A stretch of 64,000 nt of DNA from Stenotrophomonas beteli (GTDB taxonomy: Bacteria > Pseudomonadota > Gammaproteobacteria > Xanthomonadales > Xanthomonadaceae), in contig NZ_LLXV01000053.1 of NCBI RefSeq assembly GCF_001431665.1, positions 1 through 64,000 of the forward strand. Direction: 5' to 3'. Of this stretch, positions 4,387-22,730 are shown piece by piece (position 1 is the stretch's first letter; each line of letters begins with the position of its first letter). Below the pieces are notes generated by a model. It was not told where the DNA came from, searched no databases, and saw only the letters and a list, made by a program, of their open reading frames with translations. The translations under genes and the position numbers were made by a program.

Positions 4387-4471
<85 letters not shown>

Positions 4472-4621: not shown

Positions 4622-4706
<85 letters not shown>

Positions 4707-6641: not shown

Positions 6642-6726
<85 letters not shown>

Positions 6727-19824: not shown

Positions 19825-21516
19825 TTAGGCCAGTGCCTGCTCGTGCACGCCGGCGATCGCGCGACCCGACGGATCCGCCGCCGCGGCGAAACTGGCGTCC
19901 CAGGCGATGGCTGCGGGCGACGAGCAGGCGATGGACTTGCCCCCCGGCACGGTCTCGGCCGCTGCCCGGCTCGGGAAGAACTGCTCGAACAGGTGGCGGT
20001 AGTAGTACGCCTCCTTGGTCTGCGGCGGGTTGTGCGGGAAGCGCTTGTCGGCGGCCGCCAGTACACGGTCGCTCACCTGCGCCTCGGCATGTGCCTTCAG
20101 CCCATCGATCCAGCCATAGCCGACGCCATCGCTGAACTGTTCCTTCTGCCGCCACAGGATGCTGTCCGGCAGGTAGCCGTCGAACGCCTCGCGCAGCACG
20201 GCCTTCTCGATGCGGCGGCCACCAAAACCGGCACCGACCATCTTGTGCGCGGCATCGAAGCGCATCGCCACATCAAGGAACTCGCGGTCGAGGAACGGCA
20301 CGCGCGGTTCCACGCCCCAGGCCATCATCGACTTGTTGGCACGCAGGCAATCGTAGTTGTGCAGGGCGTCGAGCTTGCGTACCAGCTCATCGTGGAACTC
20401 ACGCGCGTCCGGCGCCTTGTGGAAGTACAGGTAGCCTCCGAAGATCTCGTCGCTGCCCTCGCCGGAGAGCACCATCTTCACCCCCATCGCCTTGATCCGC
20501 CTTGCCAGCAGGAACATCGGCGTCGATGCGCGGATGGTGGTGACGTCGTAGGATTCGATGTGCCGGATCACTTCCGGCAGTGCATCCAGGCCCTCCTCGA
20601 AGGTGTATTCGAAACCGTGGTGCACGGTGCCCAGCGCTTCGGCGGCGACCGCAGCAGCAGCCAGATCGGGGGAACCCTTCAGGCCGATCGCGAACGAGTG
20701 CAGGCGCGGCCACCAGGCTTCGGTCTGCCCGCCGTCCTCGATGCGACGGCGTGCGTAGCGCGCGGCCACCGCCGCCACCAGCGATGAATCGAGGCCACCG
20801 GACAGCAGCACGCCGTACGGCACATCGCTCATCAGCTGGCGTTCCACCGCGTGCTCGAACGCCCGGCGCAGCTCGGCCAGATCGGCCTGGCGGCCCTGTA
20901 CGTCGGCATAGTCGCGCCACGGTTGCTGGTAGTAGCGCACCAGCTCACCGCTGGCACTGTCGAAGTAGTGGCCCGGCGGGAACTGCGCGACGTCGGCACA
21001 GGTATCGACCAGTGCTTTCATTTCCGAGGCCACGCGCAGGCGCCCCTGGCCGTCGTGGCCCCAGTACAGCGGCACCACGCCAACCGGGTCGCGCGCCACC
21101 AGCACGCGGCCGCTGTCACGGTCCCACAACGCGAAGGCGAAGATGCCGTTGAGCTGCTCCAGCCACTGCGCCGGTGATCCACCCTGGCGGTACAGCGCGT
21201 TGATCACTTCGCAGTCCGAGCCGGTCTGGAAGTCGTAGGCGGTGGCCAGCGCGGCCTTCAGTTGCTGGTGGTTGTAGATCTCGCCGTTCACCGCCAGCGC
21301 CAGCTGGCCGTCGGCTGACAGCAGCGGCTGCGAACCACCGGCCGGATCGACGATGGCCAACCGCTCGTGGACCAGCAGCGCGCCTTCGTCCAGGTACACG
21401 CCGCTCCAGTCCGGGCCCCGGTGGCGCTGGCGCTGCGACAGCTCCAGCGCGTGACGGCGCAGGGCGGGAAGATCGTCACCGGCCTGCAGGCCGAAGATTC
21501 CAAAGATCGAACACAT
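19825..21516 (-). CDS. asnB: Asparagine synthetase B, glutamine-hydrolysing
   Basis: AsnB makes asparagine from aspartate, ATP and glutamine. The start at 21516 gives MCSIFGIFG, so Cys2 becomes the N-terminal nucleophile of the glutaminase domain. That domain continues with RQRHRGPDWSGVY and VNGEIYNHQQLK. The synthetase domain has the PP-loop LLSGGLDSSLVAAVAARYA and VLSGEGSDEIFGGYLYF. At 563 aa it is close to E. coli AsnB (554). A Shine-Dalgarno AGGAGC precedes the ATG. The gene follows a leader peptide, antiterminator and terminator (21599-21756), which strongly suggest control by asparagine-tRNA charging. Confidence 0.97.
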   Translation of the reverse strand: MCSIFGIFGLQAGDDLPALRRHALELSQRQRHRGPDWSGVYLDEGALLVHERLAIVDPAGGSQPLLSADGQLALAVNGEIYNHQQLKAALATAYDFQTGSDCEVINALYRQGGSPAQWLEQLNGIFAFALWDRDSGRVLVARDPVGVVPLYWGHDGQGRLRVASEMKALVDTCADVAQFPPGHYFDSASGELVRYYQQPWRDYADVQGRQADLAELRRAFEHAVERQLMSDVPYGVLLSGGLDSSLVAAVAARYARRRIEDGGQTEAWWPRLHSFAIGLKGSPDLAAAAVAAEALGTVHHGFEYTFEEGLDALPEVIRHIESYDVTTIRASTPMFLLARRIKAMGVKMVLSGEGSDEIFGGYLYFHKAPDAREFHDELVRKLDALHNYDCLRANKSMMAWGVEPRVPFLDREFLDVAMRFDAAHKMVGAGFGGRRIEKAVLREAFDGYLPDSILWRQKEQFSDGVGYGWIDGLKAHAEAQVSDRVLAAADKRFPHNPPQTKEAYYYRHLFEQFFPSRAAAETVPGGKSIACSSPAAIAWDASFAAAADPSGRAIAGVHEQALA

Positions 21517-21598
21517 GGCGGAGCTCCTGTTGGGGGATTTCACGAGGGGAAGGTGTTCGACCGGCCATCCAGGCCCGGGAAGGACTGCGCCCGGGCAC

Positions 21599-21629
21599 AA
21601 AAAAACCCGCATCGGCCGATGCGGGTTTT
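21599..21629 (-). terminator. Attenuator terminator in the asnB leader
   Basis: On the minus strand AAAACCCGCATC pairs with GATGCGGGTTTT around a GGCC loop, followed by seven T residues. It lies about 30 nt after the leader-peptide stop and about 83 nt before the asnB ATG. This is the position expected of an attenuator and not of the end of an upstream gene. Confidence 0.9.
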
Positions 21630-21654
21630 CTGGTGTCCGGGCGTGTGTTGCTGT

Positions 21655-21756
21655 CTATCTACCCAGGGCGCAGTCCCGCATCGGCCGCGCACGATTATTC
21701 GCGCGCAGATTATTGCGGTTGTTGTTATTGACGGCGGTGGCCAGGCGGATCGACAT
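21655..21756 (-). CDS. Asn-rich leader peptide of asnB
   Basis: A 33-residue open reading frame, MSIRLATAVNNNNRNNLRAN and then NRARPMRDCALGR, ends at TAG 21657-21655. Eight of 33 residues are asparagine (codons 10-13, 15-16, 20-21), and five of the eight use AAT, an uncommon codon in this genome. Its stop lies about 25 nt before a rho-independent terminator. AGGG about 11 nt upstream of the ATG can serve as ribosome binding site. The design is that of his, leu or thr leader peptides, with asparagine as the sensed amino acid. Seen: reading frame, codons and hairpins. Inferred: attenuation. Confidence 0.85.
   Translation of the reverse strand: MSIRLATAVNNNNRNNLRANNRARPMRDCALGR
21666..21686 (-). 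promoter_or_regulatory. Antiterminator segment of the asnB leader
   Basis: On the minus strand this segment reads GGCCGATGCGGG then ACTGCGCCC. Its first 12 nt are identical to the 3' arm of the terminator and so can pair with the terminator's 5' arm (CCCGCATCGGCC). Its GGACTGCGCCC is also complementary over 11 nt to GGGCGCAGTCC just downstream of the terminator. It lies within codons 24-31 of the leader peptide, after the Asn codons. Confidence 0.75.
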
Positions 21757-21847
21757 GGGACCGACCCTACCCCGGTTTCCGGCGCGGTGCAACAGTTGCG
21801 TCGGCAACCACGCGTGCCGCGCATAATGGCCCGCCCCGCAATATGTA

Positions 21848-22730
21848 ATGGAAATGCAACACCGCACTGGACGCAACACGGCACTGGCCGCCCTGCTCTG
21901 CCTGGGCCTGGCGGCCTGCCAGACCCTGCCCCCGCCTTCGACCCTGCCACCGGCCCAGCTGCAGGCGCTGGAGCGGCGCGGCAGCGACGGTAGTTTCGAA
22001 GGTGCCTGGGACACCGCGCAGACCTTCGAACGATTCAACGATCCGCGTGCGGTCGCCTACTACGAGCGTGCCGCAGCGATCACCCCCCGGACCTTCCAAT
22101 GCCAAGGCGGAAGAAGCACTGGGCCGGATCTGGAGCTCCGGCACGTTGCGGCATGCCGACAGCCCACGCATCGACCCTGCGCCGGTGCTGCGTGCTTCGT
22201 GGCGACGCGGCGAACGCGCCTACCTGGCCGCGGCAAACCACGGCAATCCCTACGCGTTCTTCGAACTGGCCAATGCCTACCGCCAGCGCGGCGATGCGCA
22301 GCAGGCACTGCGCTGGGACCTGCGCGCGATGATCTACCAGCGCTCTCCGAGCCGCTCCTCGCAACTGCCGGATGCCCTGGCGCCACAAGGCGATGCGGTG
22401 CACCCGCTGATCGCCCGCATCCAGCATCATGCGGATCGCGGCGACGCCGAGGCGCAGGTGGATCTGGGCGCGCTGCTGGAACGAGGCGTGGGCCTGCCGC
22501 GCGATCCGGCGGCGGCACTGCTGCTGTACCAGCACGCCGGCGAGCAGGGCAACGTGTTCGGCCAGTACTTCGCCGGGCTGCTGCTGGGCCGGAGTGCGCC
22601 AGGGGTGGAGAAGGACACCGAAGCAGCGGCGCGCTGGTTTGCCATGGCCGAGGCGCAGCACTTCTACATGGCCGCGCCGAGTTACTGGAAGAAGGCGGTC
22701 GAACCGCCGTTCTTCCTTTTTTCGGAATAG
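21848..22730 (+). pseudogene. Sel1/TPR-type lipoprotein gene with a frameshift
   Basis: The first frame (from ATG 21848) encodes a lipoprotein signal (TALAALLCLGLAACQTL) and continues to about residue 80 (ERAAAITP). The +1 frame then carries the rest of the protein from about 22083, SNAKAEEALGRIWSSG to the stop at 22730. It includes Sel1-like repeats (EAQVDLGALLERGVGLPRDP, QYFAGLLLGRSAPGVEKDTE). The frames meet at a run of six C residues (22083-22088); one C fewer would give one continuous reading frame of about 293 aa. It may be a real frameshift, a phase-variable tract or a sequencing error. Function unknown; it would be an outer-membrane or periplasmic scaffold-type protein. Confidence 0.75.

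Follow-up and report, generated by a model that had tools for sequence, protein, structure and literature searches.

The closest described systems to the locus analysed here are the classical attenuators of Proteobacteria (his, thr, trp, ilv, leu and phe), which place a short ORF with codons for the end product, overlapping alternative RNA segments and a terminator before a biosynthetic gene. The leaders of enterobacteria possess a 5′ untranslated region. The Asn-specific T-box of Firmicutes senses tRNA-Asn charging and sets the choice between terminator and antiterminator at asparagine genes, and it binds the uncharged tRNA directly. In E. coli, AsnC is a DNA-binding protein which controls asnA and responds to asparagine. 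Cys-rich upstream ORFs of mycobacteria contain a codon cluster for the amino acid of the following genes and attenuation has been proposed for them (PMC4633059); an earlier study saw no conserved terminator hairpin at mycobacterial cys leaders (PMC1262725).

The asnB locus described below lies in a window of 64,000 nucleotides, the whole stretch of Stenotrophomonas beteli DNA that was analysed. It shares the end-product-codon ORF, the overlapping segments and the terminator of the classical attenuators, but it uses asparagine and its start apparently coincides with the start of the transcript, without a 5-nt Shine-Dalgarno sequence. Like the Asn T-box it would convert tRNA-Asn charging into a choice between terminator and antiterminator, but with sensing by a ribosome on Asn codons; like AsnC and asnA it would be an asparagine-responsive control of asparagine synthesis, but one made of RNA. 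The mycobacterial ORFs concern cysteine and, according to the earlier study, have no conserved terminator hairpin, whereas both terminator and antiterminator are conserved at the asparagine locus. These mycobacterial ORFs are reportedly leaderless, as a later paper is said to have found. We consider it very probable, judging from the sequence comparisons below, that asnB is controlled by an asparagine-specific, ribosome-mediated transcription attenuator. Mechanistically it would belong to the leader-peptide attenuators already known, the amino acid being new, and the leaderless layout may make it a variant of that class.

The earlier note on this DNA knew of no well-described attenuator for asparagine, and our searches of open-access papers likewise gave none, including passages of PMC9413887, PMC3744752 and PMC5009743. 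In the attenuator survey PMC2965389, neither “asnB” nor “asparagine” appears in the main text, and an open-access paper containing both “leader peptide” and “asparagine codons” used the two terms in unrelated passages. T-box models had no match at the gathering threshold in the window, nor any at E-values up to 1 in positions 21400–21900. None of the Rfam amino-acid leaders reached its gathering threshold; the best was Thr_leader (22.2 bits against a threshold of 55), which matched at the terminator end of the model, and Leu_leader scored 19.3 bits against a threshold of 50. The features of the locus are collected in Table 1.

Table 1 Features of the asnB leader region in the window, all on the minus strand.
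Feature	Position	Strand	Basis or remark
-35-like hexamer TTGCAC, predicted leader promoter	21787..21792	-	promoter scan
-10-like hexamer TAGGGT	21764..21769	-	17 nt 3′ of the -35 hexamer, 7 nt 5′ of the leader ATG; predicted promoter
Asn leader peptide ORF, 33 codons + TAG	21655..21756	-	ATG at 21756; translation and conservation
Asn codons in leader	21729-21718, 21714-21709, 21699-21694	-	clusters of 4, 2 and 2
Segment 1:2 hairpin CTGCGCGCGA-ATAA-TCGTGCGCGG around the last Asn pair	21685..21708	-	folding and 55 relatives
Segment 2, antiterminator strand GGCCGATGCGGG, within the leader ORF	21675..21686	-	pairing and alignments
Intrinsic terminator AAAACCCGCATC-GGCC-GATGCGGGTTTT, then TTT	21599..21629	-	-19.6 kcal/mol; hairpin 21629-21602
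Segment 3, terminator 5′ arm CCCGCATCGGCC	21625-21614	-	
Segment 4, terminator 3′ arm GGCCGATGCGGG	21617-21606	-	overlaps segment 3 in the palindromic loop
Terminator T-run	21605-21599	-	
asnB Shine-Dalgarno AGGAG	21524..21528	-	
asnB, glutamine-hydrolysing asparagine synthetase, 563 aa, regulated gene	19825..21516	-	ATG at 21516

The leader ORF translates as MSIRLATAVNNNNRNNLRANNRARPMRDCALGR, which bears out the earlier claim of a 33-residue peptide with eight Asn codons in three clusters directly upstream of asnB. Two further claims, that a strong terminator separates leader and gene and that the leader holds a 12-nt copy of the terminator 3′ arm able to pair with the 5′ arm, also held: the terminator is stable in the window and recurs in every relative with a leader (see below), and exact complementarity between leader and 5′ arm ran to 12 nt at most, a length reached by 0 of 5000 dinucleotide shuffles of the leader (maximum 11). 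The minus strand from 21770 to 21599 folded with a z-score of −4.26 (0/200 shuffles as good), compared with −0.79 for the opposite strand of 21599–21790 (40/200).

A plain intrinsic terminator next to a chance ORF, with the asnB promoter downstream and the leader idle, would have to be considered for such a region, as short ORFs are common and stable hairpins arise easily in GC-rich DNA. The gene upstream is on the plus strand, so the terminator serves no upstream gene on the minus strand and a plain terminator would have no transcript to terminate here. This divergent neighbour (21848–22730, plus strand) appears to be split, with a lipoprotein-like start and a Sel1-repeat part in different frames, possibly due to a frameshift or a sequencing error.

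We compared the locus with its relatives, and this comparison supports a conserved ORF, its Asn codons, the terminator, the alternative pairing and the placement of the promoter. AsnB matches were found in 357 of 395 genomes of the same family, and upstream regions were taken from part of these; the loci came from the best 80 contigs among the matches listed and from further genomes. After the removal of duplicates and short regions, 207 asnB upstream regions were scored, a leader being called where an ORF had at least 3 Asn in 14 codons. Such an ORF was present in 158 of the 207, and 156 were kept after L157 and L178 had been judged false. The leader was found in 65 of the 78 loci from the best-80 contig set. 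By family, it was found in 78/88 loci of the window's own family, in 9/10 and 3/3 loci of the neighbouring families f153 and f143, in 1/13 loci of f148 (absent from the other 12), in 0/10 loci of f150 and in 0/5 loci of five other families. Where AsnB identity was known, the leader accompanied 126/131 loci at ≥ 70% identity (the misses being L034, L044, L071, L156 and L157) and 1/23 below that. The ten own-family loci without it comprised two with AsnB at 76–77% identity and eight at 63–66%, and no Asn leader was found in the ten scored distant loci L072, L073, L076–L079 and L081–L084. Leader-bearing genera included Stenotrophomonas, Xanthomonas, Pseudoxanthomonas, Luteimonas, Thermomonas, Lysobacter, Arenimonas, Rhodanobacter, Dyella, Luteibacter, Frateuria and Fulvimonas. 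One distant locus, L181 (genome G606, f148), has MFAIYNTINTTNNRLLRSAGSF and a terminator before asnB without a leaderless-type promoter; it is a candidate Asn attenuator which is either old or independent.

At least 4 Asn in 14 codons were found in 97.4% of the 156 leaders and in 0.6% of 780 shuffles, although it should be noted that the leaders had been preselected for at least 3 Asn in 14 codons, a level which 6.5% of shuffles attain. For amino acids besides Asn, no enrichment over shuffles was found in the 156 leaders. The N-terminal part of the peptide varies from genus to genus and the Asn clusters persist, keeping the identity of the amino acid while AAT and AAC are interchanged. Across 353 equal-length leader pairs, which are not independent of each other, pN/pS up to the last Asn was 0.69 in frame compared with 1.80 and 1.08 in the shifted frames, but only 0.22 at codons which were Asn in either member of the pair. 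The pattern points to translation of the leader ORF, with purifying selection acting on the Asn codons while the remaining peptide drifts. AAT made up 475 of the 973 leader Asn codons (49%) compared with 126 of 1049 (12%) in 127 asnB genes. The recurrence of the Asn clusters in 156/207 regions, with selection on Asn codons in this frame only, argues against a chance ORF. Conservation of the ORF in frame would also be expected of a functional Asn-rich small protein; we regard this reading as exceedingly improbable, as the peptide varies in sequence and length save for the Asn runs and the segment 2 codons, and its overall pN/pS is far above that of the Asn codons.

The terminator is as widespread as the leader. 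A hairpin with a T-containing tail lay 3′ of the leader in 156/156 loci (mean −21.4 kcal/mol), under a lenient tail rule of 3 T in 9; the presence of a terminator had played no part in choosing these loci. A hairpin of −15 kcal/mol or lower was found in 98.7% of loci compared with 10.9% of shuffled regions (one shuffle per locus), which gives the rate at which GC-rich sequence alone would supply one. The duplex between the 3′ region of the leader and the terminator 5′ arm averaged −15.4 kcal/mol and was at or below −10 in 97.4% of loci, with weak duplexes in 4/156. Set against shuffles of its own sequence, the median locus was equalled by 2%, and for 64% of loci this fraction was at or below 5%. 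When arms were permuted over 131 distinct leader/arm combinations, with the relatedness of loci uncontrolled, cognate pairing averaged −15.43 kcal/mol compared with −13.61 for permuted pairs (sd 0.18; lowest −14.21; 0/2000 as low).

Leader and arm also change together. The earlier note had proposed aligning the asnB upstream regions of Xanthomonadaceae; across the relatives compared, the leader with its Asn clusters, the terminator and the alternative pairing were conserved, with a two-sided change from G-C to A-U in the antiterminator of 8/27 loci, which recurs on the AsnB tree. These 27 loci are the subset of the 156 whose leaders end like PRAGD or PQAGD, and they were picked by that motif. 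Leader codon (CGG or CAG) and terminator arm (CCCG or CCTG) change in step in 27/27: leaders with CAGGCC have GGCCTG in the arm in 8/8 loci, and those with CGGG[CT]C have GCCCG in 19/19. The terminator 3′ arm keeps G at the switching position, pairing with C in 19 loci and with U in 8, so it is the leader strand, rather than the terminator, that the change in the 5′ arm tracks. On a tree of 54 AsnB proteins, which includes 26 of the 27 loci, 5 changes are required for the CGG/CAG label, and 3 or more are forced across well-supported branches; label shuffles were as low in 24/500 (PQ) and 30/500 (PR) cases.

In alignment A1 (27 rows), 92.1% of antiterminator cells were paired and covariation was 0.161 compared with 0.100 in shuffles (sd 0.012); neither the two-sided changed pairs (1) nor the further pair types (2) of this antiterminator exceeded shuffles. 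The A1 covariation rests on a single base pair which has switched repeatedly. In alignment A2 (55 distinct rows from 64 loci with a GATGCGG-type leader) the antiterminator was paired in 96.2% of cells, with covariation of 0.029 compared with 0.010 and two two-sided pairs (25/500 shuffles as high). The A1 terminator was paired in 99.3% of cells, with three two-sided changed pairs (95/500 shuffles as high). As leader:arm pairing covaries and exceeds permutation, an idle leader fits poorly, and together with the orientation of the upstream gene and the selection on Asn codons this leaves a plain terminator beside a chance ORF with a very slim chance.

The hairpin of segments 1 and 2 was paired in 84.2% of A2 cells, and four pairs were changed on both sides (1/500 shuffles as high). 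It is possibly a pause or protector hairpin; its support is weaker than that of the other two helices and is confounded with the conserved codons. A second hairpin, GCCCGGG...CCCGGGC, is found 3′ of the terminator T-run (21596–21573, minus strand), and CCCGG...CCGGG followed the T-run in 22/26 loci of the genus by a simple pattern match. The earlier note had also described a further 11-nt complement spanning the terminator, GGACTGCGCCC/GGGCGCAGTCC. This exists in the window, but its downstream half was intact in just 2/26 loci of the genus (the window and one other), with an 8-nt part in 13/26; we therefore rejected it as a switch element, the local hairpin after the T-run being better kept.

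Under the attenuator model, transcription would start at or within about 1 nt of the leader ATG and a ribosome would trail RNA polymerase through the Asn clusters. With plentiful charged tRNA-Asn the ribosome would reach the stop codon, a few nucleotides past segment 2, and cover that segment, so that terminator 3:4 would form and transcription would halt before asnB. Scarcity of charged tRNA-Asn would stall the ribosome at the first or second Asn cluster; segment 2 would then be free to pair with segment 3 while segment 4 is still to be transcribed, and polymerase would read into asnB. Without a ribosome, the terminator would probably be favoured via the 1:2 hairpin, although the model is ambiguous here. 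We infer the timing of these steps, the response to asparagine and the leaderless initiation from this arrangement.

We examined this scheme with a folding model which contains only the RNA downstream of a parked ribosome, omitting what lies under or behind it, with an assumed footprint ending 13 nt past the start of the A-site codon. For the early transcript, cut off ahead of the terminator 3′ arm, the share of the 5′ arm paired with the leader exceeded 0.4 in 97% of loci with the ribosome at the first Asn, 100% at the middle Asn, 85% at the last Asn and 81% with no ribosome. At the stop codon this pairing is zero by construction: the model omits ribosome-covered RNA, and the distance from the end of segment 2 to the stop has a median of 6 nt. 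The complete terminator of the window was paired at about 0.4% with the ribosome at the first or middle Asn, 95% at the last Asn, 97% at the stop codon and 78% with no ribosome. The claim that stalling at Asn codons frees the antiterminator thus fits both the geometry and the folding model of the window. Averaged over the 156 loci, the same pairing was 67% at the first Asn, 62% at the middle, 85% at the last, 97% at the stop and 84% with no ribosome, i.e. the stalling geometry is present but the full flip of the terminator, seen in the window, is only partly seen on average. As the terminator of most loci is weakened but not lost in the equilibrium model, it must be important there that the antiterminator forms early, which would make this a kinetic switch outside the window. 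Leader and arm also pair in the ribosome-free early transcript (mean 0.57, window 0.69), so that the default-off state is ambiguous in the model.

The average behaviour at equilibrium would also suit a real control which works by another route, through translational coupling, Rho, or a protein or ligand sensing asparagine, with the peptide as an accessory. The hairpin-like pattern after the T-run would be compatible with this, and since no Rfam family reached its threshold in the region an undescribed RNA may exist. Such routes are set against a terminator hairpin a median of 25.5 nt past the leader stop in the 156 loci, Asn clusters in which the amino acid is kept while its codons swap, and an asnB Shine-Dalgarno sequence which lies outside the switching helices in the window. 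We give them only a slim chance and prefer ribosome-mediated attenuation at the Asn codons.

The position of the promoter was a feature that the earlier note had not seen. We set the leader start at whichever in-frame codon scored highest for its promoter, the score being raised slightly for ATG and for a spacing of 17 nt. A TTGC-17/18-TAnnnT-like promoter then ended 6–7 nt 5′ of the start in 152/156 loci, with 17- or 18-nt spacing in 156/158. TTG[CT] lay 35–37 nt 5′ of the start in 152/155 leaders (62 + 79 + 11), a set which omits L157, L178 and L181. A promoter score of at least 11 was reached by all 155 leaders compared with 2.5% of 769 other ATGs and 3.2% of asnB starts, though the leader score is a maximum over starts and this favours the leaders. 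A 5-nt Shine-Dalgarno match preceded 0/155 leaders compared with 59% of asnB starts and 3% of other ATGs; for a 4-nt match the figures were 16%, 92% and 9%. Because the promoter lies 6–7 nt from the start and a 5-nt Shine-Dalgarno sequence is missing, the asnB leader mRNA is probably leaderless.

Similar layouts precede other biosynthetic genes. In the window's genome, a short ORF rich in Thr precedes a thrA homologue, and one rich in Ile, Val and Leu lies near ilvC. Within the family, choosing the best-scoring start, Thr-rich leader candidates were found before thrA homologues in 24/26 loci (L234 on the minus strand and L239–L263), with none at L247 and L248. TTGAC[AG] at 16–18 nt spacing was present in 22 of these candidates, being missing at L249 and L253, and in 18/22 a -10-like hexamer lay 6–7 nt from the start; no 5-nt Shine-Dalgarno sequence was found in the 24. 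Ile/Val/Leu-rich short ORFs (..VLVLIT..) near ilvC, with a like promoter layout, were found at L238 (minus strand), L271, L274 and L276, i.e. in just 4/25 loci at the threshold used, which makes this comparison weak. We think it fairly probable from these patterns that the attenuators of this group are leaderless as a rule, with the ORF beginning at the first nucleotides of the RNA, no Shine-Dalgarno sequence and ribosome-polymerase coupling from the 5′ end, asnB being the Asn-specific member. No short ORF with at least 4 His in 14 codons was found upstream of hisG in the same genome, and at its asnS locus none had at least 4 Asn in 14 codons, with a few having 3.

AsnB of the window scored 863.9 bits against NF006949 asparagine synthase B (cut-off 499). 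It is the only one of the genome's three AsnB-like proteins to pass this cut-off, but the other two pass the broader TIGR01536 asparagine synthase model (464.9 and 322.7 bits, cut-off 267.1); their genes are L002:70-2013 (minus strand) and L003:88-2172 (minus strand). We therefore rejected AsnB as the sole asparagine synthetase of the cell, and asnB may not be its sole source of asparagine. The L002 gene starts a few bases past the preceding long ORF, leaving no room for a leader. The genome gave no AsnA match, and AsnRS was present (635.2 bits, cut-off 342.6); in a cell that has this enzyme, control of asnB by tRNA-Asn charging would make sense. Elsewhere in the window lie three tRNA-Leu (cag) genes (4387–4471, 4622–4706 and 6642–6726, plus strand), which do not differ over the 82 bases that were compared.

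This locus would extend leader-peptide attenuation to the sensing of asparagine, in a bacterial group which includes Xanthomonas, Stenotrophomonas, Lysobacter and Rhodanobacter. The asnB leader would be a natural reporter of tRNA-Asn charging and, if its leaderless start is true, it would offer a clean system for studying how ribosome-polymerase coupling is established on an RNA that lacks a 5′ untranslated region.
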